From assembly GCA_947449875.1 (NCBI GenBank), contig CANFSY010000010.1:1-41724 (forward strand): a stretch of 41,724 nt of DNA. Direction: 5' to 3'. Position 1 is the stretch's first letter; every line of letters starts with the position of its first letter. Of this stretch, positions 7,488-29,337 are shown one piece after another. The translations under genes and the position numbers were made by a program. Under the pieces are notes generated by a model that saw only the letters and a list, made by a program, of their open reading frames with translations, did no database searches and was not told the DNA's origin. This DNA is from Paracoccaceae bacterium (GTDB taxonomy: Bacteria > Pseudomonadota > Alphaproteobacteria > Rhodobacterales > Rhodobacteraceae).

Positions 7488-7837
7488 TTGCGTGTTCGTC
7501 CTGTTGTCTTGGTCGTTTTGTCTGGATGACGGCTTGTCGTGGCAACCGTTCGTTTGTCGCTTGGGTTTCATGACACAAGTTTCCAAATGGCCCAACACTC
7601 AATGCAGGTGCCTTCACGGCCAATGGCACCGATCGGCAAGAATTCGCTGAAGTGAGCGGCAAGAACCTGCCGCCTTAGCGCGTTTGGGCCTATGTGGCGT
7701 TTGAGCGACAGGTTGGATATTCTGGAATGCCGGGGCACGGGGTTGGTTTGCAACAGGTGCCAAGTTCCGGTACGTTTCGGAAACTCAAGTAAAAAGCAGG
7801 GCTATGCTGCAAAATTGGGCAGCTTAAAGGATTTTGG
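7488..7837. other. Divergent intergenic region, DUF882 / ldt
   Basis: A 350-base region without a convincing gene. It must hold both divergent promoters, but I see no clear -35/-10 pair. Only a weak inverted repeat (TTCCG...CGGAA, about 7766-7783) stands out. AAAGGA precedes the transpeptidase start. Confidence 0.5.
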
Positions 7838-9461: not shown

Positions 9462-10559
9462 TTGGCCCATAGCATTGCCACCATTGCCGCAGCCATCGGG
9501 GCGCCCTTTGAAGGGGCCGGGGATTTGATGGTTGAGGGCGCCGCAGAGCCCGCTTTGGCCTTGGCCACGCAGTTGGCGCTGGCAACGAATCCGAAATATG
9601 CCGCCGGTCTGGCGCAGGGTCAGGCGCGGGCGGCTTTGCTGTGGCCGGGGGCAGATTGGCGCGCTTTGGGATTGCAAGCGGCCATCTTTGCGCCGCGCGG
9701 GCGTTTGGCCATGGCGGGCTTGACGCGCACGCTGGATGCGGGACCTGCGATTGCGCTTGGGCTTCATGCGATGACGGCGGTTGATCCGACAGCTCAGGTG
9801 GGGGCGGGGGCCGCGATTGGGCCGTTTGTCAGCATCGGGGCGGGGGCTGTGATTGGTGCCGGGGCGCGTATTGCGGGCCATGTGGCCATTGGGGCAGGGG
9901 CTGTGATTGGGGATAATGCGCTGATCTTGGAAGGTGTAAAGATCGGCGCGCGGGTGGTGATCGGCGACCGCGTGATCTTGCAACCGGGATGTGTGATCGG
10001 ATCAGACGGCTTTTCCTTTGTGACGCCCGAAGTCTCCGGTGTAGAGGAGATTCGCACAACCCTTGGAATACGCAGCGAAATTCGTCAGCAAGAATGGCAC
10101 CGCATCCATTCCTTGGGTGCGGTGGAATTGGGCGATGATGTCGAGGTGGGGGCGAACACCTGCATCGACCGTGGCACGATCCGGTCCACCCGCATCGGCC
10201 ACCGCACCAAGATCGACAATCTGGCCCATATCGCCCACAACGTCGAGGTGGGCGAAGATTGTTTGATCTGCGGCATGGTCGGGCTGGCGGGATCAGCGCG
10301 CATTGGCAATCGGGTGGTGCTTGCGGGGCAATGTGGGGTCAGTGACAACATCACGGTGGGCGATGATGTGATCGCAGGGGCTGCCACAAAGATTATGACC
10401 AGTGCGCCTGCGGGACGCGTGCTTTTGGGCTATCCGGCGCTGAAAATGGACAAGACCATCGAGCTGCAAAAGGCGCTGCGCCGCCTGCCGCGTCTGTCCC
10501 AACGGGTGGCGGATTTGGAGCAGCGCTTCGGGGCATCCGAACCCGACAGCGGCGCGTAG
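9462..10559 (+). CDS. lpxD: LpxD, UDP-3-O-acylglucosamine N-acyltransferase
   Basis: LpxD adds the N-linked hydroxy-acyl chain in lipid A synthesis. The 365-residue product has an N-terminal uridine-binding domain and a long run of hexapeptide repeats ([LIV]G-x-x-A/G type, about residues 108-345) forming a left-handed beta-helix. The catalytic histidine is His259 in AHIAHNVEVG. The start is a TTG with GGAGG at 9452-9456 five bases upstream; no in-frame ATG is suitably placed, and starting here gives the expected N-terminus (AHSIATIAAAIGA). It follows the L,D-transpeptidase gene on the same strand, linking lipid A and cell-wall functions. Other lpx genes are not in the window. Confidence 0.93.
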   Translation: MAHSIATIAAAIGAPFEGAGDLMVEGAAEPALALATQLALATNPKYAAGLAQGQARAALLWPGADWRALGLQAAIFAPRGRLAMAGLTRTLDAGPAIALGLHAMTAVDPTAQVGAGAAIGPFVSIGAGAVIGAGARIAGHVAIGAGAVIGDNALILEGVKIGARVVIGDRVILQPGCVIGSDGFSFVTPEVSGVEEIRTTLGIRSEIRQQEWHRIHSLGAVELGDDVEVGANTCIDRGTIRSTRIGHRTKIDNLAHIAHNVEVGEDCLICGMVGLAGSARIGNRVVLAGQCGVSDNITVGDDVIAGAATKIMTSAPAGRVLLGYPALKMDKTIELQKALRRLPRLSQRVADLEQRFGASEPDSGA

Positions 10560-17377: not shown

Positions 17378-18229
17378 ATGAAGGGTTTCGGCATACATTC
17401 CAGCATCTGGACGATGGATTGGACACCCCAAGCGGCAGAATACGCCGTGGCCGAGGCGGTGCGCCACCGCTTCGATTTCATCGAAATCGCGGTTCTCAAC
17501 CCCAAACGCATCGACGCCCCCCATTCGCGCCGCCTGCTAGAGGGGGCGGGCCTGCACGCCGTAGGCTCTTTGGGCCTGCCCGACGGGTTCTGGTTGTCGC
17601 GCGACACCGACAAAGGGGTAGATTTTTTGAAAGCCGCCCTTGACTGCTGCGCCGCCATGGGCGCGCAGGCGCTGTCGGGCGTGACCTATGGTGGCATCGG
17701 CGAACGCTCCGGCGTGCCCCCCACCGCGCAGGAATTGGACAACGTGGCGCGCGGATTATCACTAGCCGCAAGCTATGCCGCCCAATTGGGCCTGCACTTG
17801 GGGATCGAACCCGTCAACCGTTACGAAAGCCATTTGATCAACACGGGCTGGCAAGGGGTAGCGATGATTGAAAAAGTCGGGGCCGCAAATGTGTTTTTGC
17901 ACCTTGATACCTATCATATGAACATTGAAGAAAAAGGCGCTGGCAACGGAATTATCGCCGCCCGCGAGCATTTGCGCTATATCCACCTGTCAGAAAGCGA
18001 CCGCGGCACACCGGGGGCGGGCACCTGCGATTGGGACGAGATTTTTTCAACGCTTAAAGCCATCGGGTTTAACGGCGGATTGGCGATGGAAAGCTTTATC
18101 AGCATGCCTCCGGAATTGGCTTATGGTTTGGCCGTGTGGCGGCCCGTTGCCGAAAGCCGCGAAGAGGTGATTGGCCAAGGCCTGCCCTTCTTGCGCGGCA
18201 AAGCGCGGCAATATGGGCTGGTTGCGTGA
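17378..18229 (+). CDS. Sugar isomerase/epimerase (D-tagatose 3-epimerase-like)
   Basis: A 283-residue TIM-barrel protein of the xylose-isomerase-like family. The likely metal ligands are Glu144 (LGIEPVNRYES), Asp177 and His180 (HLDTYHMN), His203 (YIHLSESDRG) and Glu238 (AMESF). This layout, especially IEPVNRYE and HLSESDRG, matches ketose 3-epimerases that act on D-psicose/tagatose or L-ribulose; the exact substrate cannot be read from sequence. GGGAGGGG is directly upstream of the ATG at 17378. It follows aroB by 64 bases on the same strand and may be read from that promoter, although the function is unrelated. Confidence 0.85.
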   Translation: MKGFGIHSSIWTMDWTPQAAEYAVAEAVRHRFDFIEIAVLNPKRIDAPHSRRLLEGAGLHAVGSLGLPDGFWLSRDTDKGVDFLKAALDCCAAMGAQALSGVTYGGIGERSGVPPTAQELDNVARGLSLAASYAAQLGLHLGIEPVNRYESHLINTGWQGVAMIEKVGAANVFLHLDTYHMNIEEKGAGNGIIAAREHLRYIHLSESDRGTPGAGTCDWDEIFSTLKAIGFNGGLAMESFISMPPELAYGLAVWRPVAESREEVIGQGLPFLRGKARQYGLVA

Positions 18230-18344: not shown

Positions 18345-18836
18345 ATGTTGTTACTTACAAGAATTGCCGTTGTCTTCGGTATAATCGGATTGTTTGTCAG
18401 CGGCCTGTTTTGCTATTGGCTTGCGGGTGTTACCCTGTTTGAAGTTTACCATTGGCTTGCACATTACGAAATCACAATCACAATGACGCTGGAAATCATC
18501 AGCGCGATTGATAAACTGTTCTTGGGCACCGGCGTGTTCATTATGGCACTTGGCATTTCCAGTCTCGCGATCCGCCCGATCCCGCTGCCCTCGGCGCTGC
18601 AATTTCATGATTTTCATCATCTGAAATCGTTCTTCAGCAGTTTCCTGATCGTCGTGATGGCGATCATCTTTGTGGAAAATCTGGCGATTATGCCGGATAT
18701 GGTGCATGAGCCTAATTCAAGCGGATCGGAAATCCTGTTTTCAGGGATTGCCTTCCTTTTGGCGACAATTGCTTTGCTTTTGTTTCAAAAAAGCGAGGTG
18801 ATTTTTCCAGCGAAGAGCGAGACCTCGCGTTCATAA
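18345..18836 (+). CDS. UPF0114/YqhA-like membrane protein
   Basis: A 163-residue protein with four membrane helices (about 5-30, 58-78, 95-115 and 129-147). The stretch ISAIDKLFLGTGVFIMALGI followed by FHHLKSFFSSFLIVVMAIIF has the spacing of the YqhA family, where a conserved helix is followed by a short loop with an acidic/His-Leu-Lys motif. The family function is unknown. GAGAGG lies upstream of the ATG. The gene stands alone: a strong terminator follows, and 115 bases separate it from the isomerase gene. Confidence 0.65.
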   Translation: MLLLTRIAVVFGIIGLFVSGLFCYWLAGVTLFEVYHWLAHYEITITMTLEIISAIDKLFLGTGVFIMALGISSLAIRPIPLPSALQFHDFHHLKSFFSSFLIVVMAIIFVENLAIMPDMVHEPNSSGSEILFSGIAFLLATIALLLFQKSEVIFPAKSETSRS

Positions 18837-18871
18837 TGGTTTGAGCAGGTATTCAAATTATGTAACCTAAT

Positions 18872-18911
18872 AGTCGCCCGAAGATGTATATCCTCGGGCG
18901 ACTTTTTATTT
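18872..18911 (+). terminator. Strong intrinsic terminator
   Basis: AGTCGCCCGA (18872-18881) pairs with TCGGGCGACT (18894-18903) and is followed by TTTTATTTT. A short inner GAT/ATC pairing tightens the loop. It ends the YqhA-like gene. Confidence 0.92.
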
Positions 18912-18971
18912 TAAATATTTTATAATTCCAGCAAAAAACCGCTTTGGCGGAGCAGCTTGATTTATAAGTCC

Positions 18972-19436
18972 CTAAAACAACAACTTATACGTATTCCCCA
19001 AAGTATCCGTCACCGTCCCCGTACCACTTTCCGTGCCTGATCCAGTGATAAACCGCCCCTGCACCCGCGTGCCATCTGTGCAGACGGCATAAATCTCGCC
19101 GGAATTGACACCGCCCACATCCGTAACCGATTTGTTCAACTTTCCGCCCGTACTTTGCAGCGTCAGCGACAGGCCGCGTTCTTTTTCGGTCACACGGGGG
19201 GCGACAGAGGTCCATGTGCCGTTGCAGCGGTTCTTTTTGCCCGGGGTGGGCAGAACAAAGCTGATATCGGCCGAGGCTGTGGTTTGGTTGCGCACTTTGA
19301 CGGCGATGATCTCGGCGGGGTGGCTTTCCTTCAGCGGTCCGTCGATTGGATACAGCCGCAGGTTCACAGCCTTGTTGCCGCCGCAGCCGGACAGGGTCGC
19401 AGCCAAACATAGGGCAGTTAAAACGGTGCGCTTCAT
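18972..19436 (-). CDS. Lipoprotein, copy A (left edge of island)
   Basis: A 154-residue lipoprotein. The signal MKRTVLTALCLAATLSGC contains a lipobox (LSGC), so Cys18 would be lipidated. The mature domain is beta-rich with two later cysteines (KNRCNGTW and YAVCTDG) that may pair. I recognise no family. Reading the minus strand, CCAAGGGGC precedes the ATG. A diverged copy is at 28729-29190; the last 100 residues are nearly identical between the two, with most visible DNA differences in third codon positions. This copy sits on the chromosomal side of the partial tRNA-Gln (19510-19527). It is probably the original resident gene, now cut off from the tRNA that used to lie upstream. Confidence 0.8.
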   Translation of the reverse strand: MKRTVLTALCLAATLSGCGGNKAVNLRLYPIDGPLKESHPAEIIAVKVRNQTTASADISFVLPTPGKKNRCNGTWTSVAPRVTEKERGLSLTLQSTGGKLNKSVTDVGGVNSGEIYAVCTDGTRVQGRFITGSGTESGTGTVTDTLGNTYKLLF

Positions 19437-19506
19437 ATGTTTAGCCCCTTGGCTGAAGGCTTGGCCAAAGGCCGCCGCCCCGCGAGTTTCGTATGTCACT
19501 TTAGAT

Positions 19507-19527
19507 AGTTGGCTGGGGCGCTAGGAT
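19507..19527 (-). other. Attachment site with tRNA-Gln 3'-end copy (left)
   Basis: A 21-base segment is identical to 29260-29280. Bases 19510-19527 correspond to the last 18 bases of tRNA-Gln, including CCA and the acceptor and part of the T-arm strand. Similarity stops abruptly at 19528. This is the standard mark of integrase-mediated insertion at a tRNA 3' end. Confidence 0.9.
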
Positions 19528-19578
19528 ACCGTCAAAGAGGAAGAAATGTTTAGGGAAAAAGGGGTTGGTTAGCGAAAG

Positions 19579-19599
19579 TGGGGCAAGGGATGGGGCAGT
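19579..19599 (+). repeat. Candidate integrase arm sites, left
   Basis: TGGGGCA occurs at 19579 and again, as TGGGGCAGT, at 19591, a 12-base period. The same pair, with the same orientation and spacing, occurs at 28702 and 28714 near the other end. The motif is short and also occurs by chance in GC-rich host genes (for example near 29742), so the call rests on the matched pairing. Confidence 0.4.
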
Positions 19600-19695
19600 A
19601 AGCATGAATCTTTCATCAAAATCTTATTGCATCGCTGGGAAAGGGTGCTGATATAGGCTTGTACTGTCCGCCGTACTGATCACCGGAGACTTGGT

Positions 19696-20166
19696 TTGGA
19701 ATCAAATGTTGAACAAAGGGATGAAGAGCACTCGGCGCTTGGGCGGGCACTTGAGAGCATCGATGATGCGGTACCGCTTCGCAAAATTGAGAGGATGATT
19801 GACCAGCTAGAGATATCGGCAGATGCCAAAGCTCTGATTATGGACATCGCATCACTGACCGTTCGGGTGGGTGAGATGATCATAGCGATTGGTAGGAAGG
19901 TGGTCAGCTTTGCACTTGGGCTTATGAAAAAATTTCCTAATACGGCGTTTGGGATCGTGATTGCTGTGATTGTTGGTGCCTTGCTCGGTTCCGCCTTTGG
20001 GGGCATCCCGTTGATTGGAGCTGTGCTGGTTGCAAAGTTGAAGGCAATTCTATTGATCTTCGGTATCGCAAAAGGAGCGCTGACAGATTTGGCCGGCACG
20101 CCGCTTAGAGCAGCGGTAGATGATCTGGTCACAAGGATTGCCCCTGTTGCAAAGGTTGCCCAGTGA
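19696..20166 (+). CDS. Hypothetical two-helix membrane protein, 156 aa
   Basis: A 156-residue protein. The start is a TTG at 19696 with GGAG seven bases upstream (19685-19688). Residues 1-60 are charged and helical; residues 66-130 are hydrophobic and Gly/Ala-rich (VSFALGLMKKFPNTAFGIVI, then ALLGSAFGGIPLIGAVLVAK), giving two or three membrane-active helices. I recognise no family. The stop overlaps the start of the TerB-like gene by one base, so they are coupled and probably act together at the membrane. It is the first gene inside the left edge of the island. A possible promoter (TTGCAT near 19628, GATATA near 19651) lies upstream. Confidence 0.72.
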   Translation: MESNVEQRDEEHSALGRALESIDDAVPLRKIERMIDQLEISADAKALIMDIASLTVRVGEMIIAIGRKVVSFALGLMKKFPNTAFGIVIAVIVGALLGSAFGGIPLIGAVLVAKLKAILLIFGIAKGALTDLAGTPLRAAVDDLVTRIAPVAKVAQ

Positions 20167-21041
20167 TGGTTCTTCGTAGTATTTCACAGCAAGCCGATGC
20201 ATTTGGAGAGGTCCTGCAAGTCATTTACGATCCACTGCGCTTCAAACGTAAACTGGCTATTGGCGAAGATGCATACACGTCAATGAGGGTCGGAAAAACG
20301 CTGGCACAACTTTGGGATGTTGGTGGCGTTGCAGCCACTGGTGGCAGCATTGCAGCTTCTACAACCGTAGCTGGTACATTTTTTGCATCCAGCGGCTGGC
20401 TGGCAACAATCGGGCTTGGCGCCGCGGCTGTTACACCAGTAGGTTGGGTAATCGGCGCTGCGCTCGCCACGGGCGGGGCATATTATGGGGTAACGCGTCT
20501 TTTTAAGTCATACCATGGGTCACGGGTTGATGTGATCCCGAAGTTTATCAATACACCTATTGATCTGCTGGGTACTTCACTGATGGATATGCTTGGGGCT
20601 TTGAGCTTTAAGATAGCTCTGACTGATGGCGAGGTTACCGAGTCTGAACGGGTCGCAATCAAGGATTACTTTATCACTGAGTGGGGGTATGACCCTAACT
20701 ATGCGTCAGTTGCGCTTGGAGTATTGGAAGAGAACGCTGGCCAAGGAACCATAAAGGAAATGACTGCTGCGCTTGGCAGTTTTATTAATGACAATCCTGA
20801 CTGCAACTTCGCGGCCATCAAAGAAGAGCTTATCAGGTTCCTGCGAGAGATTGCTGCAGCAGACGGTGTTTTTGACGAGCGCGAAGAGTTCGCGATTGAA
20901 AAAGTGGATGCCTTGCTGAGAGAGCCGCTGCCCTTGGAATCGACGGTACGTGCTGTCGCTTCTGCTCCAGGAGAATTGGTTGGCCTTGCGGGCAAGATAA
21001 TACGAAGCGTCACGGGTGCGACCGAAAGCAAACAGAATTAA
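20166..21041 (+). CDS. TerB-like protein with membrane hairpin
   Basis: A 291-residue protein. Residues about 50-112 are a Gly/Ala-rich hydrophobic hairpin (TTVAGTFFASSGWLATIGLG, then TPVGWVIGAALATGGAYYG). The rest is a helical domain with two acidic repeats, LTDGEVTESER (about 153-163) and AADGVFDEREE (about 232-242), the pattern of the TerB family, in which such acidic turns bind metal. TerB-like proteins belong to Ter stress systems that have been proposed to act in metal sensing and phage resistance. The ATG at 20166 overlaps the previous stop; a GTG one codon earlier is also possible. The fusion of TerB to a membrane hairpin, coupled to a second membrane protein, suggests a membrane-acting effector or sensor. 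Confidence 0.72.
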   Translation: MVLRSISQQADAFGEVLQVIYDPLRFKRKLAIGEDAYTSMRVGKTLAQLWDVGGVAATGGSIAASTTVAGTFFASSGWLATIGLGAAAVTPVGWVIGAALATGGAYYGVTRLFKSYHGSRVDVIPKFINTPIDLLGTSLMDMLGALSFKIALTDGEVTESERVAIKDYFITEWGYDPNYASVALGVLEENAGQGTIKEMTAALGSFINDNPDCNFAAIKEELIRFLREIAAADGVFDEREEFAIEKVDALLREPLPLESTVRAVASAPGELVGLAGKIIRSVTGATESKQN

Positions 21042-21051
21042 TCGCTTGCCC

Positions 21052-21531
21052 TCATTGATTAAATTCTTGAAACTTTCGTCTATGAACTTTGATAATTTCC
21101 TCTTCAGTCTTTTTGGAGTAAGAACTAAACAAAAAAACTCCGAGGAAGAGACCTCCGAAAGCGATAATTATTCCAGAAACTCCAGAAAAAACAATGCCAA
21201 CTAATATACCAAACAGCGGCCCACATATGATCGATGCCCGAGCAATCCAGGTTAATTTAAAACCTACTGCCGCAGAAATTAAGTTCCTTGCTTCCTCATC
21301 AGTAAGTGCAAAAGATGATTCATGATTTTGAAAATCTGGCTGATTAATGGTATCTAGTGCACAGTTAACAAGAAGATCCTGCTCTTCTTTTGTTGCTTTT
21401 CGGAAGTTCTGTCGAGCTAGTTCTAAGTTGGTAACTTTTTTAACAAATGAGAGTCTTTCTCCCTGATTCGCAACGAGTTTCTCAACAGCGTCAGCAAGTC
21501 CTTTAGCCTCTCGTTCTCTGCGGCGTTGCAC
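21052..21531 (-). CDS. Two-helix membrane protein, paralogue 1 (amber codon near ancestral start)
   Basis: A 159-residue protein from a GTG at 21531. Residues 1-90 are charged and helical; about 95-115 and 118-138 are membrane helices; a basic tail follows. It is a diverged paralogue of the product of 21679-22224: both have a helix with EQD/R-x-L-x-N-x-AL-x-x-INQ-x-DF, then an acidic LT-x-E(D)-A motif, then GP-x-x-G-x-x-x-G-I in the first membrane helix. Upstream codons EKIVQRRRER match EKIDQRRKER of the partner, and a TTG with AGGTG upstream aligns with its ATG, but codon 3 is TAG (21544-21546). The gene is therefore either N-terminally broken or uses the internal GTG, which has no good ribosome site. 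The region is AT-rich. Confidence 0.6.
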   Translation of the reverse strand: MQRRREREAKGLADAVEKLVANQGERLSFVKKVTNLELARQNFRKATKEEQDLLVNCALDTINQPDFQNHESSFALTDEEARNLISAAVGFKLTWIARASIICGPLFGILVGIVFSGVSGIIIAFGGLFLGVFLFSSYSKKTEEEIIKVHRRKFQEFNQ

Positions 21532-21678
21532 AATTTTTTCACTCTAGTCCAAAACATCACCTCTAATTGCCTTACTGTTCCAGCTTTGATCACAGGAAAG
21601 TCCTATAAAATCGATAATCTAAGCCTCTTAGCACTGCAGTAACTTATCTTCTGGAGGCGCATTTCTCTGCTTAGGACA

Positions 21679-22224
21679 TCAAACATCACTCTGCTTTTCA
21701 CTCTTAACAAGCACATCTAAATCGTGAACCTTGGGCGCTAATCTCTCTAATTTATGTTCCTCGATCAACTGTGACTTCTTGAATTTCTCAAGAAAAATGC
21801 CAACCACAGCTGCCAGCATAACGCCACCACTCGCAACTGTAATTCCAAGAGCCCATGATTCCGTGATCCCCAGATACAGTCCTATCGCTGGGCCGAGTAG
21901 CATCAAAATACGACCCCACAAAAGCAATGATTGATGTGCTGCCGCTTCCACTATTGTTTCAGCATCTTCCCTAGTCAGGTTCGATTTGACTGTCGAGGAT
22001 GAAAAATCAATTTGATTGATCACCTCTAATGCTTCATTTTTCAAGCGATCCTGCTCAGTTATTGACAAAGATCCAAAAGCCAATTTCGCTCTAGCCTTTT
22101 CTGTCATCCTTTCGCGTTCAATCTGCCCTTGGGTTTTGGGTTGCTCTGGAGCAACTTTGACTTCCCTCTTCGCATCAACCAGACGTTCCTTGCGACGTTG
22201 ATCAATCTTTTCCTTTAAGTCCAT
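21679..22224 (-). CDS. Two-helix membrane protein, paralogue 2
   Basis: A 181-residue protein. Residues 1-60 are highly charged and probably coiled (KEKIDQRRKERLVDAKREVK); residues 101-121 and 124-145 are membrane helices (ILMLLGPAIGLYLGI and the following segment); the C-terminal 35 residues are charged and cytoplasmic. No named family is evident to me. It shares its whole layout with the product of 21052-21531, and the two lie in tandem on the minus strand, so they arose by duplication. It is the intact member of the pair. AT-rich codon use differs clearly from the chromosomal genes on either side of the island. Confidence 0.7.
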   Translation of the reverse strand: MDLKEKIDQRRKERLVDAKREVKVAPEQPKTQGQIERERMTEKARAKLAFGSLSITEQDRLKNEALEVINQIDFSSSTVKSNLTREDAETIVEAAAHQSLLLWGRILMLLGPAIGLYLGITESWALGITVASGGVMLAAVVGIFLEKFKKSQLIEEHKLERLAPKVHDLDVLVKSEKQSDV

Positions 22225-22247
22225 TCCGCTACCTACTTTGATTGAAT

Positions 22248-22613
22248 TTAATTACCTGTGAGCGATCCCAAAATCGCCGCACCGACGACAGATGCAGCAA
22301 CACCGGCTGCGGCTCTATTGCCCATTTTCCTGGCGCTTTGCTCGGCATCAATCACATCGTCGATTACCCTGGATGCCCTTACGGTGCGTAATTCCTCAGG
22401 TACTCGTCGTTCAAACGTGATCATTAACGTTTCGCGATCACTTATAACAAGATGCCGCTGCAGGACCTTCTCCATGAACACTAAGCGCCAACCCTCCGCT
22501 GCCATGGCATTCAGATAGGCCTCCAGAACGCTCGTTTCGATACGACCCTCTCCTAAGAGGAACGAACTGATTGACCCATCTGCGACGTCTATGACTTTGT
22601 ACTCGAATTCCAT
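22248..22613 (-). CDS. DUF4177-like protein with C-terminal membrane segment
   Basis: A 121-residue protein. The N-terminus, MEFEYKVIDV, followed by EAYLNAMAAEGWRLVFMEK and a closing strand LMITFERRV, matches the pattern of DUF4177, a small alpha/beta fold often seen in phage and stress genes. Residues 98-118 are Gly/Ala-rich and hydrophobic (AAAGVAASVVGAAILGSLTG), a possible membrane tail. The start at 22613 has GAGG just upstream on the minus strand. It is first in a minus-strand run with the two paralogous membrane proteins, divergent from the XRE-type regulator at 23043. Confidence 0.65.
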   Translation of the reverse strand: MEFEYKVIDVADGSISSFLLGEGRIETSVLEAYLNAMAAEGWRLVFMEKVLQRHLVISDRETLMITFERRVPEELRTVRASRVIDDVIDAEQSARKMGNRAAAGVAASVVGAAILGSLTGN

Positions 22614-23042
22614 GCAGCCTCGCACAACGAATTAGGAAAAGGAAGTTTCTCTCGATGGCAAAGACAATCTCATATCTAGCCTTGGGTAGATCGCCTCTCA
22701 ACGCTCCCCCGATAGGCTAGATGCATTGGTGCGATCTCGCAACATGAAAGCGTGAGCTTCTTTTGGGAACTTAAAACATCAAGATACAGAAATTTAGTGT
22801 TAAGGTCGCGTCTGTCCTCCGGCCGTTAGTCGCCTTTCGTATTAATGGGTGTTTGAGTTTTTTGATCGCTATTGAGCTTGGCGAAAGTGTGGGTGCCGGA
22901 ACGGGTCGCCTTGCTCTCGCCTAGTGTTTGAAGTGACGGCGATCAAATGACGTGTGTGCGCATGAAAAAGAAAGACAAAGGCGTTGCATTGATAAGATGT
23001 GGCGCGTAGATGTTTTTGCATAGCCAGTAGAAGGATCGGGTT
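22614..23042. other. Divergent regulatory region in the island
   Basis: A 429-base region with no convincing gene. It separates the minus-strand membrane genes from the XRE-domain gene and is the natural site for divergent promoters and an operator. A 9-base inverted pair, TTTGATCGC (22861-22869) and GCGATCAAA (22939-22947), is the only clear symmetry. AAGGATC precedes the ATG at 23043. Confidence 0.5.
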
Positions 23043-23636
23043 ATGTGGGAATACGAGAACGAAGATCAGAAGCGTGTGATGGAAGAACTGATCACAACAG
23101 CTAACTGTGGGCAAAAGTTGAAGTTGGTGCGTGAAGTGTCGGGCCTTTCTAGGAAGGAACTTGCTGATATATTGGGATGCTCCGAAACAACGGTTTTTCG
23201 GTTGGAAACGGACAAGAGCAAGGCAACCGAGGAGTTCATCTTTCGTCTAAGGGCACTGACGGTCATCGGGTATCACAAGTTCAAATCCTTAACCGATGCA
23301 GAAAAGGGCACTCTTGCCGAGACTTTGGGCGCTGCGGGAGGGGCCGCGACGGGGGTAGCCGGGTCGATTGCTGCAGTGTCGGCTGCGGGGAGTGTGGCGG
23401 GCGTTTCAGCTGCTGGTATCACCTCTGGGCTAGCGGCGATCGGAGGGGGGTCTATGTTAGGAGGAATTGGGATAATTGCCGCACTGCCGTTGGCGGTAGG
23501 TCTTGCGGGTTACGGCTTGGTCAAGGGGATCCAAGCCATTTGCTTCGCCAACGACCTTGATTGCAATGAAGTAGATGGTCGATACGAGATCGTGGCTTCC
23601 CCCCGCAAGCCAGAGGAAGGTGTTGAACATGCTTGA
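23043..23636 (+). CDS. XRE-type HTH protein fused to glycine-rich membrane domain
   Basis: A 197-residue protein in two parts. Residues about 22-80 form an XRE-type helix-turn-helix (KLKLVREVSGLSRKELADIL, then GCSETTVFRLETDKSKA). Residues about 96-170 are almost entirely Gly, Ala, Ser, Val and Ile (AAGGAATGVAGSIAAVSAAG, then LGGIGIIAALPLAVGLAGYG), a glycine-zipper-like membrane hairpin. The C-terminal 30 residues are polar. A DNA-binding domain joined to a membrane domain suggests a membrane-tethered regulator, or an immunity repressor that senses membrane state. The hairpin resembles that of the TerB-like protein in composition and in ending with a Y-G pair. It overlaps the next gene by eight bases. 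Confidence 0.72.
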   Translation: MWEYENEDQKRVMEELITTANCGQKLKLVREVSGLSRKELADILGCSETTVFRLETDKSKATEEFIFRLRALTVIGYHKFKSLTDAEKGTLAETLGAAGGAATGVAGSIAAVSAAGSVAGVSAAGITSGLAAIGGGSMLGGIGIIAALPLAVGLAGYGLVKGIQAICFANDLDCNEVDGRYEIVASPRKPEEGVEHA

Positions 23637-23802
23637 AGCTCTTGCAACTTTTGGCTCGGGCCTATTCTTCACCACATGGTCGAACGTAGCCATAGCGTCC
23701 TTGATTTGGCTGATTTCACAAGCGCACCCTGCGCTATCCGCTGCAGCGATATTGATACTGGTCTTGCTTGCATTGGCCGATGAAGGCATTGCGAAAAGCT
23801 AA
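23629..23802 (+). CDS. Small two-helix membrane protein, 57 aa
   Basis: A 57-residue protein starting at ATG 23629 inside the end of the XRE gene, with AGGAAGG at 23614-23620 eight bases upstream. It is hydrophobic throughout, with two helices (about 12-31 and 35-51), and ends in the polar ADEGIAKS. The eight-base overlap implies translational coupling to the XRE-membrane protein. Small size and two helices would fit a toxin-like or holin-like peptide, or a subunit of a membrane complex with its partner. I recognise no family. Confidence 0.6.
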   Translation: MLEALATFGSGLFFTTWSNVAIASLIWLISQAHPALSAAAILILVLLALADEGIAKS

Positions 23803-23852
23803 TGGCAATAGTTTGAAGGTGGCGCCTCGGTCGCTCAAAAAAACCGAGCAAT

Positions 23853-23886
23853 CTCCTGTATCTAAATAAAGAAGCAGAAACAGGAG
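23853..23886 (+). promoter_or_regulatory. Hairpin that can hide the ribosome site of the next gene
   Basis: CTCCTGT (23853-23859) can pair perfectly with ACAGGAG (23880-23886), which contains the ribosome site AGGAG of the gene at 23893. The 20-base loop is A-rich. Just upstream, CTCGGT/ACCGAG (23826-23831, 23843-23848) forms another stem. Opening and closing of the first stem could control translation. Confidence 0.45.
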
Positions 23887-23892
23887 CTTAAT

Positions 23893-24051
23893 ATGAAACT
23901 AGTGTCCGCCCTCGGCCTTTTGGCCGGGGGTTTTGTTTTGGTGCCTAAGGGTGTCTGGGTGTTCGTGGCGCTTTGGGGTTTGGCGAAGGTGCAGCCCTTG
24001 GCAACCGTGACGCTGCTTGGGGTGTGGCTGCTGGTGGAGCGGTGGCTATGA
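23893..24051 (+). CDS. Small membrane protein, 52 aa
   Basis: A 52-residue protein reading MKLVSALGLLAGGFVLVPKG at the start, with two hydrophobic segments (3-17 and about 21-50). AGGAG is six bases before the ATG. The stop TGA overlaps the ATG of the next gene (ATGA at 24048-24051), so the two are translationally coupled. Composition is rich in Leu, Val, Trp and Gly. No family is recognised. The position, just before the small soluble protein and the integrase, suggests it belongs to the conserved core of the element. Confidence 0.6.
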   Translation: MKLVSALGLLAGGFVLVPKGVWVFVALWGLAKVQPLATVTLLGVWLLVERWL

Positions 24052-24245
24052 AACCGGGGCTCGTTAGACCTGGTGATGTGGTCACGATCAGGGCCTTCGA
24101 CGATGTGCCGGAACATCAGTTCTTGGTGGAAGAGGTGTTCGAAGACTTCGTTACAGGCTTTGCCGTGACAGGCGACTTGGCAGGACAATACGGCGAACCT
24201 GAGCTGGTCATGGTTCTTAGGAATCCCTCTAAGCCAAAGAAGTAA
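24048..24245 (+). CDS. Small soluble hypothetical protein, 65 aa
   Basis: A 65-residue protein beginning MKPGLVRPGDVVTIRAFDDV and ending in the basic tail NPSKPKK. The centre (HQFLVEEVFEDFVTGFAVTG, then PELVMVLRN) is consistent with a small beta-barrel, for example an SH3- or KOW-like fold, but the resemblance is weak. The ATG overlaps the previous stop by ATGA. The integrase starts 55 bases later. It has no signal or membrane helix. The function is unknown. Confidence 0.6.
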   Translation: MKPGLVRPGDVVTIRAFDDVPEHQFLVEEVFEDFVTGFAVTGDLAGQYGEPELVMVLRNPSKPKK

Positions 24246-24273
24246 ATCAGAAAAATGAGAAACAACACAGCAA

Positions 24274-24289
24274 TGGGGCATAGGCCCCA
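24274..24289. promoter_or_regulatory. Inverted repeat before the integrase gene
   Basis: TGGGGC (24274-24279) and GCCCCA (24284-24289) form a 6-bp inverted repeat with a four-base spacer, directly upstream of the AAAGGAGG ribosome site of the integrase. It uses the same TGGGGC core as the repeats near both element ends, so the integrase could bind here and control its own gene. A simple RNA hairpin affecting translation is the alternative. Confidence 0.4.
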
Positions 24290-24300
24290 AAGGAGGACTC

Positions 24301-25518
24301 ATGTCTGTTAGGATACAATATGCCTATCTCAAGCAGCAGACCTGGCTGTATCGGCGCAACTACCCGGTTGAGATGCAAGGAGTGCTAGGGGCTGCGTTGA
24401 AGCAGTCTTTGAAGACGGGTGACGCCAAGGTGGCCAAGGTGAGGGCTGCCGAGGTGAACGCCAAGTATGAAGAGATCGTGGCTAAGGCGCGGGAAGGGGT
24501 GGTGCTGGGTCGGCCAGAACCGATCCGCGTGTCGCCCAAGGTCTTTGCCCCTGTCGTGGTCATAGGGCGGCTGCCTGTGGCTAAGCTGGCAAAGGACTAT
24601 CTGGCAAAGCGGGCGAAAGACCTGCAGCCGGGTGGCTACAAAAGCGTGCGGTTCAGTGTGGGGCTGTTCGCTTCGGCCTTTGGTGACAGGCAGGTGGCGC
24701 AGGTTACCCGTGAAGACGCAGCCAGCTTCGTGCGGCGGTTGGGTGACCTGTCAAAGGATGTCGGCAAGTCTTATCGGGCAAAGGGGCTGGGGCTGGATCA
24801 GCTGGTGAAGATCAGCGCTGGTCAGAAGATCTTGCCACAGACCCAGCGCAGGATCGTCACTCAGGTGGGCCACTTTCTTGACTGGGTGGTTTATCAGGGA
24901 GAGCTTGCGACCAATCCTTTCAGCACAGTGCGGGTTGAAGGCAAGGCCAAGGTGCACAGCTATGTGGCCCCGACACACGAAGAGGTGCGCAGGCTGGTGG
25001 GGTTGGCTGATCCGGTCATTGGCGATGTGCTGAAGGTCTGCTTGCTGTCGGGCATGCGGTCGGGCGAGGCGGTTGGCTTGGTGCGGGAAGATCTGGTCTG
25101 GAAGGGCAACTTGGGCTGGTTTGCTTGGGTTCGCCCTAATGCGGTTCGCAGTTTGAAGACCGATGCAGCCGAACGGTTGGTTCCCTTGCACTCTGCGCTG
25201 ACAGCGGTGCTTGGGCGACGGCCAGAGGGGGAGCGGCTGTTTCCTGAACTGAGTGTGTCTTTGGTCACCAAACGCTTTGCCAAGCTGAAGGGGCTGGTGG
25301 GGGTGGATCGCCCGGGCTTGGTGTTTCACTCGTCTAGAAAGTGGTTTGTGACCGAGTGCGAGCGTGCCGGGGTGCCGGAGCACTGGACCGCTTCAATCGT
25401 TGGCCATCAGTCTGCGAGGTCAGAGAACCGGATGACCTATGGCATCTATTCGGCTGGTATCAGCGATGAACAGAAACGCGAGATCGTGGAAAAGGTGGGC
25501 CTTCCGTGGCACCCCTGA
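24301..25518 (+). CDS. int: Tyrosine recombinase (phage-type integrase)
   Basis: A 405-residue integrase. The N-terminus (YLKQQTWLYRRNYPVEMQGV) is the arm-type DNA-binding part seen in proteobacterial phage integrases. A core-binding domain spans about 92-215, and the catalytic domain has Arg253 (LLSGMRSGEAVGL), Lys286, His343 and Arg346 (FHSSRKWF), His369 (IVGHQ) and a tyrosine in MTYGIYS (Tyr380 or Tyr383). The active site is complete, so it should be able to integrate and excise the element. AAAGGAGG precedes the ATG. Its location about 4.8 kb from the left edge and 3.8 kb from the right is unusual for a tRNA-inserted island. Confidence 0.95.
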   Translation: MSVRIQYAYLKQQTWLYRRNYPVEMQGVLGAALKQSLKTGDAKVAKVRAAEVNAKYEEIVAKAREGVVLGRPEPIRVSPKVFAPVVVIGRLPVAKLAKDYLAKRAKDLQPGGYKSVRFSVGLFASAFGDRQVAQVTREDAASFVRRLGDLSKDVGKSYRAKGLGLDQLVKISAGQKILPQTQRRIVTQVGHFLDWVVYQGELATNPFSTVRVEGKAKVHSYVAPTHEEVRRLVGLADPVIGDVLKVCLLSGMRSGEAVGLVREDLVWKGNLGWFAWVRPNAVRSLKTDAAERLVPLHSALTAVLGRRPEGERLFPELSVSLVTKRFAKLKGLVGVDRPGLVFHSSRKWFVTECERAGVPEHWTASIVGHQSARSENRMTYGIYSAGISDEQKREIVEKVGLPWHP

Positions 25519-25688
25519 CACCCGTTCCAGACATCGACGCGTTCGAGGAGAGGGCCGCAATCATGCAGTATGATGGCGGGTTAACTCGTTCTAGGGCCGA
25601 AGACGAGGCTGCTCAGGCACAGGGCTTCCGGGATGCTGCCCACTATCGGCAGGTGCTGGCAGACTATGTGGTTTCCGGTAAGCTATGA
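25506..25688 (+). CDS. Small hypothetical protein after the integrase, 60 aa
   Basis: A 60-residue frame from GTG 25506, overlapping the integrase stop by 13 bases. The central motif EERAAIMQYDGGLTRSRAED resembles a short conserved segment found in many alphaproteobacterial mobile-element proteins, often as a fragment of larger replication or primase proteins. Because the motif starts before the ATG at 25563, the GTG start is preferred. It may be the remnant of a larger domain, or a small accessory protein coupled to the integrase. No function can be assigned. Confidence 0.6.
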   Translation: MAPLTPVPDIDAFEERAAIMQYDGGLTRSRAEDEAAQAQGFRDAAHYRQVLADYVVSGKL

Positions 25689-25694
25689 TGAAAA

Positions 25695-25723
25695 GACCCT
25701 CGGCGGCTATGGCTGCCGGGGGA
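25695..25723 (+). terminator. GC-rich hairpin, copy 1
   Basis: An approximately 11-bp stem (CCCTCGGCGGC with GCTGCCGGGGG) closes a TATG loop. It lies between the 60-residue gene and the coiled-coil gene. A nearly identical hairpin is at 26583-26611. No T-run follows this copy, so its action as a terminator is uncertain. Confidence 0.6.
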
Positions 25724-25751
25724 CAACAAGTGATTAAGGAAAGGACTAGGG

Positions 25752-26525
25752 ATGGGTCTTCTGGCGAGTATGATCGGTAATGCATGGAGAACCACAAGAA
25801 ATATCCTTCTCGTAATAGGTTTAGCGATATCCTTGGCGGTGAACGTGGCCAGTTTCACAGTTAACGCTGTATCAACCGCAATTTCGACGGTGGTCGAGGG
25901 TGTCACCGGGGTCAAGACTCTGGTTTCATCGGTTTTTCAAAGCGAGGCGGACCTTGCAACGGAACGTCTCTCGGCAAAGAATCTCAAAAAAGAGCTCGCC
26001 GAAACAGTCGCAAAGCTCAAGGCTGAGCGGGTGATAAGAATTGCTGCAGAAGAGGAATTAGGGCGGCTACGAAGGATTGCAGGCAAAAAAAAGGTGATGA
26101 TCGACGGTGCTGAAAAGACTGTCGAGGAAGCGGTGGCTTTAACGACCAGTCGGGTCCGCAATCGAACAGTCAAACTGGCTGCCGCTGACTTAACTGCTAC
26201 AGCTGGGCAGGCGATACCGTGGATCGGGGTTGGCGTGGTGGTTGCGGCGACAGCTTACGATCTCGATATGTCCTGCCAGACCATGAAGGACATGAAGGCG
26301 CTGGAGCAAGCGTCGGATCCGACTGCTGTTGATGATGGCGACGTCAGTCAAGTGTGTGGAATGAAGGTGCCCACCGCGGATGAGGTTTGGGAGGCAGTGA
26401 AGGCTAGTCCTGGGCAGGCTTGGAACGCCGCTGCTTCAGTGCTGAGTGGTTTGCCTAGCGTCATGCCAGACTTGCCCGCTTGGTGGGACTATTTGGTCTC
26501 AATAGATTGGACCCCCTGGAACTAG
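25752..26525 (+). CDS. Membrane-anchored coiled-coil protein, 257 aa
   Basis: A 257-residue protein. Residues 17-40 form a membrane anchor (NILLVIGLAISLAVNVASF); residues about 65-110 are a coiled coil rich in Glu, Lys and Ala; residues 150-170 are a second hydrophobic stretch (GQAIPWIGVGVVVAATAYDL). A distinctive C-terminal region contains LDMSCQTMKDMKALEQASDP and SQVCGMKVPTADEVWEAVKA with two conserved-looking cysteines, and ends in a Trp-rich tail (LPAWWDYLVSIDWTPWN). No named family is recognised. Two nearly identical hairpins bracket the gene, so it may be its own transcription unit or a separately acquired cargo cassette. Confidence 0.7.
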   Translation: MGLLASMIGNAWRTTRNILLVIGLAISLAVNVASFTVNAVSTAISTVVEGVTGVKTLVSSVFQSEADLATERLSAKNLKKELAETVAKLKAERVIRIAAEEELGRLRRIAGKKKVMIDGAEKTVEEAVALTTSRVRNRTVKLAAADLTATAGQAIPWIGVGVVVAATAYDLDMSCQTMKDMKALEQASDPTAVDDGDVSQVCGMKVPTADEVWEAVKASPGQAWNAAASVLSGLPSVMPDLPAWWDYLVSIDWTPWN

Positions 26526-26883
26526 GGGTTCGCTATACTTGATAGGCCAGAGATTGATTGGAAGTTCTAGGATTGATCCTGAGACCCTCGGCGGCTTCGG
26601 CTGCCGGGGGAGCCTGACTTTGCTTTTTTTATCGTTTTCCAAGAGAGCATGGGGGTCAGGGAGAAACCAAAAGCATCGATTTTCCGGTGTGTCAAAGACC
26701 CTTTGCGGGTGATGCGGGATACCGGATTTTGGTGCCGATCTGGACGGTGCAACGAGGGTCGCAAAACCCCCAAATCCACCACAGTGCACTAATAGAGAAC
26801 GAACGCCAAGATACCTGTTTTCTGGGCTTTTCTGGGCGGTCGGCGATCTCTGGCACACAGATCAATTTTGAGGAAAATTTCTT
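26526..26883. other. Intergenic region before the helicase; possible origin
   Basis: A 358-base region without a gene. It contains the second hairpin (26583-26611) and, at 26818-26837, a perfect tandem copy of the 10-base unit TTTTCTGGGC. The stretch 26790-26880 is A/T-rich and directly precedes a replication-type helicase, a common place for an origin. The evidence is positional. GAGG lies before the helicase ATG. Confidence 0.4.
26583..26630 (+). terminator. GC-rich hairpin, copy 2, with TTCG loop
   Basis: The same stem as at 25695-25723, but the loop is TTCG, a very stable tetraloop. It is followed by a T-rich tract ending in seven T's at 26624-26630, though about 13 bases after the stem. 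It should end transcription of the coiled-coil gene. Confidence 0.7.
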
Positions 26884-28278
26884 ATGACAGTTACAAATAT
26901 TAAACCGCATGTGGTGGCGGCGCAGGGCTATGATCCTGAACATCTCACCACCCTCTCACGCGCGATGGCAAGCTGGTTCGTGAAGCTTGATAACAGCTTC
27001 TTTGATGTAGACGACCTCGGTCATAAACGGTCGCGCATCGACATCGAACAGACATCAATCGTCCGGTTCCAGGAGGAGTTTCCGAATATTCCTCTGACCA
27101 ATGTACTGGTCGGCGCGGTGTTCAAACGGACCATCCAAACCCGTCATACAGCCATCGACGAGATTATCCTGCCTTGGAATGGCCGCGTTGTTTGCTTCCC
27201 AGGCGATGCAAGGAAGATCATCGTGCACCGGGGTGTCGCAACGGTGAACGCCTGGAGCGAGCCAGCATATCGACGGCTGGGTGTCGTCAAGGCAGACAGC
27301 GGTGTGGCTGGCGAGTTCTTGGATTGGTTCTTCACGCGAGAAGCAGAACGTGAGATGTTTTTGAACTGGTTGGCGTGGTCGTTGCAGAACGAAGCAGATA
27401 AACCAAACTGGGCACCTTTCTTCTTCTCGACACGCATGGGAACCGGGAAAAGCACTGTGGCCATGTTGCTGGCACGGCTGTTTGGTGAGGCAAACTCCAT
27501 CACGCAGAACAATGTCGATAAGCTGACCGGGCGGTTCAACATGACGTTGCTAAAGAGCAAGTTAGTGATCTGCGAAGAGGTCAATCTTCGGCCCGGTAGC
27601 GGGGATGCCAACACACTTAAGACTTATATCACCGAGCGGATGACAGCGGGCGAAGCAAAGGGTCGAGAAACCGAGCGGGTCGAACAACGGGTCTGCCTAG
27701 TTCTAACCAGCAACCATATGCCGTTCTGGATCGAACCCGAAGATCGGCGCTACTACATCGTTAATGTGGATCATGACGGCTATGCACGTGGTCCTCGGGC
27801 GGCGGACTTCGCGGCTTTGGTGCAGCGGTTGGAGGTTTGGGCCGCTCATGATGGCAATGTCGCGCGATTCTATAATGCTTTGGTCGCACGCGTGCTGCCA
27901 GACGATTTCTCGGCCAAGACTCTCAATGTGGATGTCCACGGCACAGAGATTATGCGGCAGGTGTTTGGAAACGGTCGTGCAACGATCTTAGACCAGCTCG
28001 AAGAACTTCTGACCGGACGTGGGCAACATGCGCTGCCGGAAAGTGAAGTCGTTAAGCTGGTGACGGGCGAGTTGAAGGGAAACATCAACAGCACCAAACA
28101 CCTGATGTCAGATCTAGGTTGGATCAAGCAAGCGGTGAAATGGGGGGCGGTCGATCATAAACGGCAGCTATGGGTTCAACTCGGCTATACTGTCCAGAAC
28201 GGTAAGATCTTCGGGCCGGACGGATTCGAGCAAAACTTGGCTGTCCACATGAAGGAAGATTGGGAAATCATTCGATGA
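26884..28278 (+). CDS. SF3/D5-like replication helicase (DUF5906 type)
   Basis: A 464-residue ATPase of the kind that starts replication in phages, satellites and plasmids. Walker A is FFSTRMGTGKSTVAML (Lys189, Ser190), Walker B is SKLVICEEVN (about 225-234), and the sensor-1 region is VLTSNHMPFW (Asn277) followed by EPEDRRYYIV. This order matches superfamily 3 helicases of the P4/D5 type. The N-terminal 150 residues hold no recognisable primase or zinc-binding motif, so this is a helicase without an attached primase. A winged-helix-like C-terminus (370-464) follows. The HNH gene overlaps its stop by ATGA. Confidence 0.88.
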   Translation: MTVTNIKPHVVAAQGYDPEHLTTLSRAMASWFVKLDNSFFDVDDLGHKRSRIDIEQTSIVRFQEEFPNIPLTNVLVGAVFKRTIQTRHTAIDEIILPWNGRVVCFPGDARKIIVHRGVATVNAWSEPAYRRLGVVKADSGVAGEFLDWFFTREAEREMFLNWLAWSLQNEADKPNWAPFFFSTRMGTGKSTVAMLLARLFGEANSITQNNVDKLTGRFNMTLLKSKLVICEEVNLRPGSGDANTLKTYITERMTAGEAKGRETERVEQRVCLVLTSNHMPFWIEPEDRRYYIVNVDHDGYARGPRAADFAALVQRLEVWAAHDGNVARFYNALVARVLPDDFSAKTLNVDVHGTEIMRQVFGNGRATILDQLEELLTGRGQHALPESEVVKLVTGELKGNINSTKHLMSDLGWIKQAVKWGAVDHKRQLWVQLGYTVQNGKIFGPDGFEQNLAVHMKEDWEIIR

Positions 28279-28643
28279 TTGAATTTGCTTATGCAGACGA
28301 GGGCCAGCAATGGTTTGAAGATGTATTCGCTCACCATCTGGAGGAGGCTCGTTCGCGGGCCTTCGCACTGATCGATGAAGGGGTGGTAGCGGATACAGGT
28401 TGCATAGAGACGCCGACGATCGGGGCGAGAAAGGTCCGGTTCAAGGGCCGCCAGATGCCAGCCTACCGCTTCATCTTCTGCATCCTGAATCAAATGGTGG
28501 CGGGATATGAAGATGTGGTGCGGCATCGTTGTGATAACCGATGTTGTATCAACCCTGACCATCTTGAACTTGGATCCCGTGGCGAGAACCTGCAGGATGA
28601 GCGGGAGTTTGATGCCAACGGGGTCGATTTCACCCTGCTCTAA
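28275..28643 (+). CDS. HNH endonuclease, 122 aa
   Basis: A 122-residue protein. The active-site region is DVVRHRCDNRCCINPDHLEL (about 80-99): His84, a Cys86/Cys90/Cys91 cluster suited to binding zinc, and N-P-D-H ending in His96. This is the phage-type HNH nuclease pattern, seen in homing endonucleases and in packaging-associated nucleases. The N-terminal 75 residues are helical and recall DNA-recognition parts of homing endonucleases (RKVRFKGRQMPAYRFIFCIL). The ATG at 28275 overlaps the helicase stop. It is the last element gene before the duplicated lipoprotein segment and could act in packaging, mobility or interference with competing phages. Confidence 0.85.
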   Translation: MIEFAYADEGQQWFEDVFAHHLEEARSRAFALIDEGVVADTGCIETPTIGARKVRFKGRQMPAYRFIFCILNQMVAGYEDVVRHRCDNRCCINPDHLELGSRGENLQDEREFDANGVDFTLL

Positions 28644-28701
28644 CAGAACGTTCCACTGGCCCCAATCAACGGTGTTTTTCGTAACCCACCGCACCCGCAA
28701 C

Positions 28702-28722
28702 TGGGGCAGTCTTTGGGGCAGT
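28702..28722 (+). repeat. Candidate integrase arm sites, right
   Basis: TGGGGCAGT occurs at 28702-28710 and 28714-28722, a 12-base period matching the pair at 19579/19591. It lies 6 bases from the start of the duplicated lipoprotein segment (28729), i.e. at the edge of the element's own DNA. An inverted GGCCCCA lies at 28668-28674. Confidence 0.4.
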
Positions 28723-28728
28723 TTGCGC

Positions 28729-29190
28729 TTAGAACAGCAGCTTATACGTGTTCCCCAACGTATCCGTCACCGTCCCCGTGCCACTTTCCGTGCCAGATCC
28801 GGTGATAAAATGCCCCTGCACCCGCGCGCCGTCGGTGCATACGGCATAGATCTCGCCTGAATTGACTCCGCCCACATCCGTGACCGATTTGTTCAACTTT
28901 CCGCCCGTACTTTGCAGCGTCAGCGACAGGCCGCGTTCCTTTTCTGTCACGCGGGGGGCGACAGAGGTCCACGTGCCATTGCAGCGGTTCTTTTTGCCTG
29001 CGCCCGGCAGAACAAAGCTGATATCGGCTGAGGCTGTGGTTTGATTGCGTACTTTAACCGCGATGATTTCGGACGGGTTGCTGTTTTTGATCGGCCCGTC
29101 AATCGGATAAAGCCGCAGGTTCACCGAACTGCCACCACATCCCGACAGGGTAGCAACAAGGCACAGGGCCGTCAAAACGTGGCGCATCAT
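28729..29190 (-). CDS. Lipoprotein, copy B (next to intact tRNA-Gln)
   Basis: A 153-residue lipoprotein, the counterpart of the product of 18972-19436. The signal (HVLTALCLVATLSGC) has the same lipobox, then GGSSVNLRLYPIDGP, one residue shorter than copy A. From RNQTTASADISFVLP onward the proteins are nearly identical. Start 29190 (reading AAAGGGG upstream on the minus strand) aligns with the ATG of copy A. The gene lies 72 bases downstream of tRNA-Gln on the same strand and may be read from the tRNA promoter. If recombination was in the tRNA 3' end, this copy arrived with the element. Confidence 0.8.
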   Translation of the reverse strand: MMRHVLTALCLVATLSGCGGSSVNLRLYPIDGPIKNSNPSEIIAVKVRNQTTASADISFVLPGAGKKNRCNGTWTSVAPRVTEKERGLSLTLQSTGGKLNKSVTDVGGVNSGEIYAVCTDGARVQGHFITGSGTESGTGTVTDTLGNTYKLLF

Positions 29191-29262
29191 AGCTTTGGCC
29201 CCTTTGCTGAAGGCTTGGCCCAAGGCCGCCGCCCCGCGAGTTTCGCTGTCTCTTTAAGCAGT

Positions 29263-29337
29263 TGGCTGGGGCGCTAGGATTCGAACCTAGGTATGTCGGT
29301 ACCAAAAACCGATGCCTTACCGCTTGGCGACGCCCCA
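29263..29337 (-). tRNA. tRNA-Gln (anticodon TTG)
   Basis: A complete 75-base tRNA on the minus strand. The acceptor stem is TGGGGCG with CGCCCCA, the discriminator base is G, and CCA is encoded. The anticodon stem TCGGT/ACCGA holds the loop TTTTGGT with TTG at positions 34-36. The T-arm is CTAGG-TTCGAAT-CCTAG. The 3' 18 bases are repeated at 19510-19527, showing it is the insertion site of the island. Confidence 0.96.

Follow-up and report, generated by a model that had tools for sequence, protein, structure and literature searches.

An integrase island at tRNA-Gln and the two lipoprotein genes at its edges

The window, by which we mean the whole analysed stretch of 41,724 nucleotides, is contig 10 of a genome assembly of 3.05 Mb in 179 contigs, and contains a 9.75-kb integrase island seated at tRNA-Gln(TTG) (Table 1). 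A tyrosine-recombinase integrase is encoded inside the island and a 21-bp direct repeat comprising the tRNA 3' end lies at both of its edges, as in integrative elements of tRNA genes. In the distal core copy, 18 bp correspond to the tRNA and three bases to the sequence beyond it, while the position of the tRNA-side core is backed by integrase relatives located at tRNA-Gln.

Table 1. Features of the island and its edges (positions in the window)
Feature	Position	Strand	Basis or remark
tRNA-Gln (TTG), integration target	29263..29337	-	ARAGORN
tRNA-side attachment core, 21 bp (18 = tRNA 3' end)	29260..29280	-	sequence
Copy B, lipoprotein gene, tRNA-proximal; inside the element, between core and arm motif	28729..29190	-	
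Doubled arm-type motif, P side (putative function)	28702..28722	-	0 mismatches to ACTGCCCCANNNNCTGCCCCA
HNH endonuclease-like protein	28260..28643	+	Pfam HNH_3
Primase/helicase-like protein (DUF5906, P4-type primase C-terminal)	26884..28278	+	
257-aa protein between integrase and primase	25752..26525	+	without significant family match
Tyrosine integrase (DUF6538 + Phage_integrase)	24301..25518	+	Pfam; relatives
Helix-turn-helix regulator, candidate element repressor	23043..23636	+	
DUF4177 protein, cargo	22248..22625	-	Pfam
TerB-domain protein, cargo	20163..21041	+	Pfam
Doubled arm-type motif, P' side (putative function)	19579..19599	-	1 mismatch; -70/-58 from the distal core
Distal core copy, beside copy A	19507..19527	-	sequence
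Copy A, lipoprotein gene, displaced; host side of the distal core	18972..19436	-	host synteny with G005

The length of 9.75 kb, the integrase, the helix-turn-helix regulator and the P4-type primase would fit a phage satellite (PICI/P4-like). Eight element ORFs besides copy B were scanned against PHROGs, three of which matched families of integration, regulation, primase or unknown function, the integrase among them (phrog_1); three further element ORFs were scanned against Pfam only. The integrase matches two phage records, both of one phage, at 25% identity and has no confirmed relative in viral_contigs. The island is probably a small integrative, satellite-like element, with mobilisation by a helper phage being putative.

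The original prediction that a lipoprotein gene is present in two copies at the island edges, together with a copy of the tRNA 3' end, was confirmed by repeat search, ARAGORN and ORF analysis. Direct repeats at 18973-19527 and 28730-29280 were found mechanically as a piece of 300 nt at 90% identity, one of 116 nt at 83% and shorter ones, all at a spacing of 9753-9757. These are the only two matching places in the whole 3.05-Mb genome when it is searched with positions 18500-20000 of the window. The repeat is bounded by the core on the tRNA side and by exactly the stop codon of copy B on the other, the latter boundary being an observation absent from the original prediction. Both ORFs are intact (154 aa for copy A, 153 aa for copy B) and show, as read by eye, a lipobox-like LSGC.

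From core to stop codon the copies are 85.8% identical at the nucleotide level. Their differences are, as predicted, mostly synonymous (47 synonymous versus 18 nonsynonymous; NG86 dS 0.556, dN 0.055, ratio 0.10), and their amount resembles that between genes of different species of the genus, where the dS of host genes is 0.40–0.96 (two flanking genes in four genomes) as compared to 0.56 between the copies.

On a wider scale the lipoprotein gene is rare: it is found in ten of 394 genus representatives of the family and in nine of 121 relatives. The protein has no Pfam, NCBIfam or PHROG match and no match on plasmids, and three viral_contigs relatives were found at 33–34% identity. Its AlphaFold model (mean pLDDT 76) is mostly beta, and a Foldseek search of the PDB with it returned nothing at E ≤ 0.001.

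Position of the arm-type motifs in integrase relatives and in the window

A search for the integrase in the 394 genus representatives gave 19 matches at 1e-60, own genome included. We examined 20 loci (L033-L036, L157-L172) from 16 of the 18 other genomes (G441 and G295 were left out), some of which are two loci or overlapping stretches of one genome. Cores derived from the tRNA-Gln 3' end were recognisable in seven loci (six genomes) and tRNA-Gln itself in five; pattern search gave no core in the other 13. The lipoprotein gene is absent from all 20 (E 1e-4).

The core-bearing relatives share the short motif TGCCC[CT], often doubled 12 bp apart, which lies at +67 to +81 from the core in six of the seven (missing on the P side in L165) and at about -59 or -71 in five (missing on the P' side in L163 and L166). 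These motifs are presumed to be arm-type integrase sites. In the window, the P' pair is placed at -70/-58 as in the relatives. The P pair, however, immediately follows the stop codon of copy B, at +560/+572 where the relatives have +67 to +81, so that the arrangement of the relatives, with these presumed arm-type motifs on both sides within about 100 bp of the core, is not kept. The extra 492 bp correspond to the spacer and the complete lipoprotein gene, which therefore lies inside attP. This supports the prediction that the element carries its own version of the tRNA-adjacent gene beside its attachment core. A P arm that is 492 bp further out than usual may not function, which counts against this interpretation.

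The equivalent offset is +565 in G006 and, in the independently assembled species G004, +563 (+562 for the second copy). A search of the window for the full double motif returned the two sites mentioned and one match with three mismatches (0.29 expected). As the lone 6-base motif also occurs by chance further out in the relatives, e.g. at +548 in L162 and +601 in L035, the geometric argument rests on the exact doubled motif, the lack of a counterpart near +68 and the association with the stop codon.

Recurrence of the arrangement and ancestry of the copies

The gene-family set comprises 68 loci; the relatives named here are Rhodobacteraceae/Paracoccaceae, many of them metagenome-assembled. A full-length gene preceded by tRNA-Gln at no more than 1.2 kb and in the same orientation was found 17 times (L105, cut by a contig end, is an additional case), so that tRNA-Gln and the lipoprotein gene form an old neighbourhood. 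On the other hand, 46 of the 63 other family loci in the tree have no tRNA-Gln within 1.2 kb upstream (five of the 46 with less upstream DNA), and the gene is thus not generally in need of tRNA-Gln. The original prediction that copy B may depend on the tRNA promoter, with copy A silenced, is putative; scans for promoters and terminators returned nothing above chance level.

G005 offers a clean single-copy locus beside tRNA-Gln, as was predicted for the empty site: one copy of the gene follows the tRNA and is succeeded, about 50 bp further on, by a homolog of the host gene that ends at 18229 of the window. The G005 gene is split between two contigs, which share an identical overlap of 82 bp within it. 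It is this gene order that assigns copy A to the host-side position, with a UPF0114 gene intervening between the copy and that host gene in the window and in G006.

The expectation that the arrangement recurs at tRNA-Gln held as well. G004, whose integrase is 98% identical in protein, shows the same two-copy layout, and displaced remnants are found in several genera. The distal copy of G004 also has the motif behind it, which suggests that two elements are piled up there. In G006, a single copy followed by the motif lies beside the tRNA, with no integrase match at 1e-40. Altogether, TGCCCC occurs within 60 nt of the stop codon, a limit chosen after the offsets had been seen, in eight of the 17 tRNA-Gln-adjacent genes versus none of 47 others (Fisher 5e-6), the background being 3.2% of random 60-nt stretches in the same loci. 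This count excludes two gene fragments that carry the motif (L091, L101) and two loci truncated by contig ends (L105, L106); L040, a G005 contig that begins inside the gene, was counted among the 47.

A displaced second copy (E 1e-4) is present in five of the eight motif-bearing loci (L039, which is G004, L044, L059, L068 and L082), and in six if a weak match of 21 residues in L067 (E 0.0013) is included; such weak matches were sought in 11 chosen genomes. L094 and L054 (G006) have the motif and no displaced copy behind the gene. The nine motif-free tRNA-adjacent loci, in which tRNA-Gln is followed by the gene as in G005, show none, two of them having short downstream DNA (L086, 354 nt; L070, 1661 nt). 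The window and G004 retain an intact displaced copy; L044, L059, L067, L068 and L082 have a 3' fragment, with in-frame stops in L068. Thus, in the seven cases including the window, the tRNA-proximal copy is always intact (7/7) and the displaced one is truncated in five. The fragments start at varying positions, about residue 71 to 120.

In the nucleotide tree, copies A and B are each other's nearest relatives (support 94/95). Copy B is slightly nearer than copy A to the genes of G006 (dS 0.52 versus 0.69) and G005 (0.87 versus 1.09) as well as to the tRNA-proximal copy of G004; relative-rate tests of A versus B with six outgroups were not significant (p 0.08–0.79). The prediction that copy A is the host gene and copy B a foreign one was thus not borne out: the two are closest to each other, and B fits the relatives at least as well. 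The prediction had itself named a copy B closer than A to the host lineage as evidence against it, and the data lean in that direction, by a difference that is not significant in the relative-rate tests. Copies with an arm motif behind them are scattered over the protein tree (67 rows), ten copies requiring eight changes as compared to a mean of 9.5 after shuffling, and at least three of these changes are forced by well-supported branches. The carried gene therefore seems to follow the host lineages, which would fit with several captures from local hosts, with gene conversion between the two copies, or with crossing over within the gene. That copy B moved together with the integrase was considered and is not supported, as the integrase is 94.2% identical in nucleotides between G000 and G004 and gene B only 80.5% identical to the G004-proximal copy; carriage as such would still be compatible with these values, as the stretch from the integrase module to copy B (about 26640-28680) finds no nucleotide counterpart in G004.

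In one lineage an empty-site relative is available. L082 was compared with L105/L106, which are joined by an identical 83-bp overlap. Differences amount to 0/42 in the spacer, 10/240 in the first part of the gene and 21/207 in the rest of it, and in the host DNA to 11/174 upstream of the tRNA and 11.6% downstream. This is suggestive of a mosaic gene in L082; gene conversion or a crossover within the gene would fit as well, the distance of the tRNA-proximal gene from L105/L106 being about that of the host flanks. In addition, the spacer past the tRNA is 85.9% identical between G004 and G006 as compared to 60.0–70.4% in the other pairs listed, and the DNA upstream of the tRNA shows no such excess of similarity, which points to exchange at the tRNA core in that pair.

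Interpretation of the locus

We consider it probable, at about 0.62, that the island is a tRNA-Gln(TTG) integrase element whose attP holds a complete lipoprotein gene, so that insertion regenerates both the tRNA and the gene. What the loci exhibit directly is the layout of the island, an arm-type motif out of its usual place, the repeated occurrence of the arrangement and, in most lineages with a displaced copy, the truncation of that copy. The tyrosine integrase would cross over at the 3' end of tRNA-Gln(TTG), presumably at the core, and in attP the core would be followed by the spacer, the complete gene and, last, the P arms. Integration would regenerate the tRNA 3' end, the intergenic spacer and an intact gene in native order, and would move the resident gene to the opposite edge of the island. 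There it would be redundant and usually lost, as the truncation in five of seven cases suggests. The arrangement may have originated by one illegitimate junction just behind the stop codon, or by a few such events, which would have joined the region behind the gene with the core-to-arm spacer of the element before the element excised normally at the tRNA core. The 550-bp repeats could recombine later on and thereby keep the carried gene close to the version of the local host, and the arrangement may have been kept because the tRNA–gene unit is regenerated. Besides the distance of the P arm, the chance occurrences of the 6-base motif and its lack on one side in three relatives, it counts against this explanation that the arm-bearing copies do not form one clade, that copy B shows no sign of foreignness to the host lineage, and that the L082 gene would also fit gene conversion or an internal crossover.

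A crossover inside the lipoprotein gene or at its 3' end would account for several of these observations at once. Copy B would then mostly be the host's gene and copy A mostly the element's, with repair restricted to the 3' end of the gene. The motif right behind the stop codon, the arm-bearing copies tracking host lineages, the greater closeness of B than A to the genes of relatives, the low early and higher later difference in the L082 gene with none in its 42-nt spacer, and the many displaced copies that are 3' fragments would all agree with it. It is nevertheless unlikely in our view, as the P' motifs keep the family spacing to the tRNA core and not to the gene, relatives of the integrase use tRNA-Gln without such a gene, and the A/B difference in relative rate is not significant. 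Nor is a fixed core visible in the gene, and one was rejected on account of the varying starts of the fragments.

Still less credit is due to the view that the gene is a passive passenger, i.e. that an ancestral attP was extended once by imprecise recombination and has since undergone homologous recombination, gene restoration being without benefit. The mosaic similarity along the gene speaks for it, as do the lack of the gene in most genera and its intact state without a nearby tRNA-Gln in many genomes. Against it speak the ten arm-bearing full-length copies in the tree, which have no internal stop, the truncation of displaced copies in five of seven cases, and the dN/dS of 0.10 between A and B.

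An ordinary local duplication with later insertion of the element between the copies, for which the sister relationship of A and B might speak, is very improbable and was rejected, in agreement with the prediction as far as a recent event is concerned, since the repeat includes the tRNA 3' end and terminates at the att features (the core and the arm motif behind the stop), the layout recurs in G004 with remnants in several genera, and the divergence of A and B equals that between species.

The tRNA-Gln element with a gene-bearing attP, our preferred explanation, has several features in common with known systems. Tyrosine-integrase elements of tRNA genes, including PICI/P4-type satellites, likewise integrate at the tRNA 3' end and supply a new one, and share with it a doubled attP motif, a primase-like replication gene and several cores in tandem. 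In contrast to these, attP here also holds the complete downstream protein gene, placed between the core and the arm motif. One PICI group is reported to have a doubled attP motif (PMC10111431); the same paper gives identity blocks of up to about 250 bp, as compared to a repeat of 550 bp in the present case. Prophages in tRNA-Gln of Rhodobacteraceae are reported (PMC8224337).

Islands in icd, dusA and fis also provide a replacement coding sequence and leave the displaced piece at the other edge (dusA, PMC4482086; icd and fis, PMC10111431). In those, however, the core lies in the gene and one end of it is replaced, whereas the present element has its core in the tRNA and carries the entire gene next to it. 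The attR damage by PICIs (PMC10111431) is similar in that the displaced piece of the target is degraded and excision would leave a defective target. It differs in that tRNA fragments and deletions from a fixed site are concerned there and protein-gene copies truncated at variable points here, which fits plain decay. In the titles and abstract openings of the literature searched, to which older subscription journals mostly did not belong, we found no description of a whole downstream gene carried in attP.

It is known that elements in tRNA genes repair the tRNA. The new point is one of geometry: a complete neighbouring gene inside attP and an arm-type motif that lies some 490 bp away from its usual place. 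If the transcription unit behind the tRNA is also repaired, the cost of insertion would be a wider constraint on the design of attP than has been assumed, and whole host genes could travel, be swapped and be replaced via attachment sites without looking like cargo. In a more far-reaching version, which we regard as rather doubtful, a class of tRNA elements would have taken an entire host gene into the core-to-arm part of attP and would refresh it time and again, by recombination, with the version of the local host; with the displaced host copy decaying, the island would end up holding the sole intact copy on which the host relies, and the neighbouring gene would act as an addiction device that stabilises the island.

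Spacing of the putative arm motif

In the window, in G004 (a species with the same two-copy layout) and in G006 (a relative with a single tRNA-proximal copy), the putative P-side arm motif lies an extra 491–496 bp away from the core, the attachment repeat formed by the tRNA-Gln 3' end. As this extra distance corresponds by hand arithmetic to about 47 helical turns of 10.5 bp, the presumed phasing of the arms may be preserved despite it, although the argument is a weak one because the three copies are related.

Positions of the putative arm motif and of gene fragments joined to it
Feature	Sequence	Position	Strand
P-side arm motif	window	28702-28722	-
Lipoprotein gene 3' fragment fused to arm motif (L025)	G004 contig 36	~7630-7814	
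Lipoprotein gene 3' fragment fused to degenerate arm motif (L026)	G006 contig 3	~7818-7970	

Gene fragments and the DNA beside them

The two fragments in the table are found at loci other than the tRNA-Gln sites of these genomes, neither stretch contains a tRNA, and the one in G004 runs on into what we take, by eye, to be a piece of an IS21-type transposase. They represent either the ends of other elements or relics.

At four further loci (L044, L059, L068 and L082), 2–3 kb with an ORF content that differs in each genome separate the proximal gene from the displaced fragment, and a search of all four for a relative of the window integrase found none. These intervals are probably decayed islands with unrelated cargo.

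The lipoprotein gene and tRNA sites

Distant relatives of the lipoprotein (33–34% identity) are encoded in three viral_contigs records (L122-L124). In L065, tRNA-Gln lies at -494 from an intact lipoprotein gene, and a degenerate second core, separated from the tRNA by ~380 bp, stands immediately 5' of that gene; it is possibly the relic of an insertion that brought no copy of the gene. Two other loci (L066 and L073) carry tRNA-Arg(ccg) rather than tRNA-Gln ~150–200 bp upstream of the lipoprotein gene, on the same strand, possibly reflecting transfer of the gene between tRNA sites. Four loci with relatives of the integrase (L035, L036, L162 and L166) each hold three tRNA-Gln cores, on both strands, within 18–20 kb, suggesting that the stacking of elements at tRNA-Gln may be frequent.
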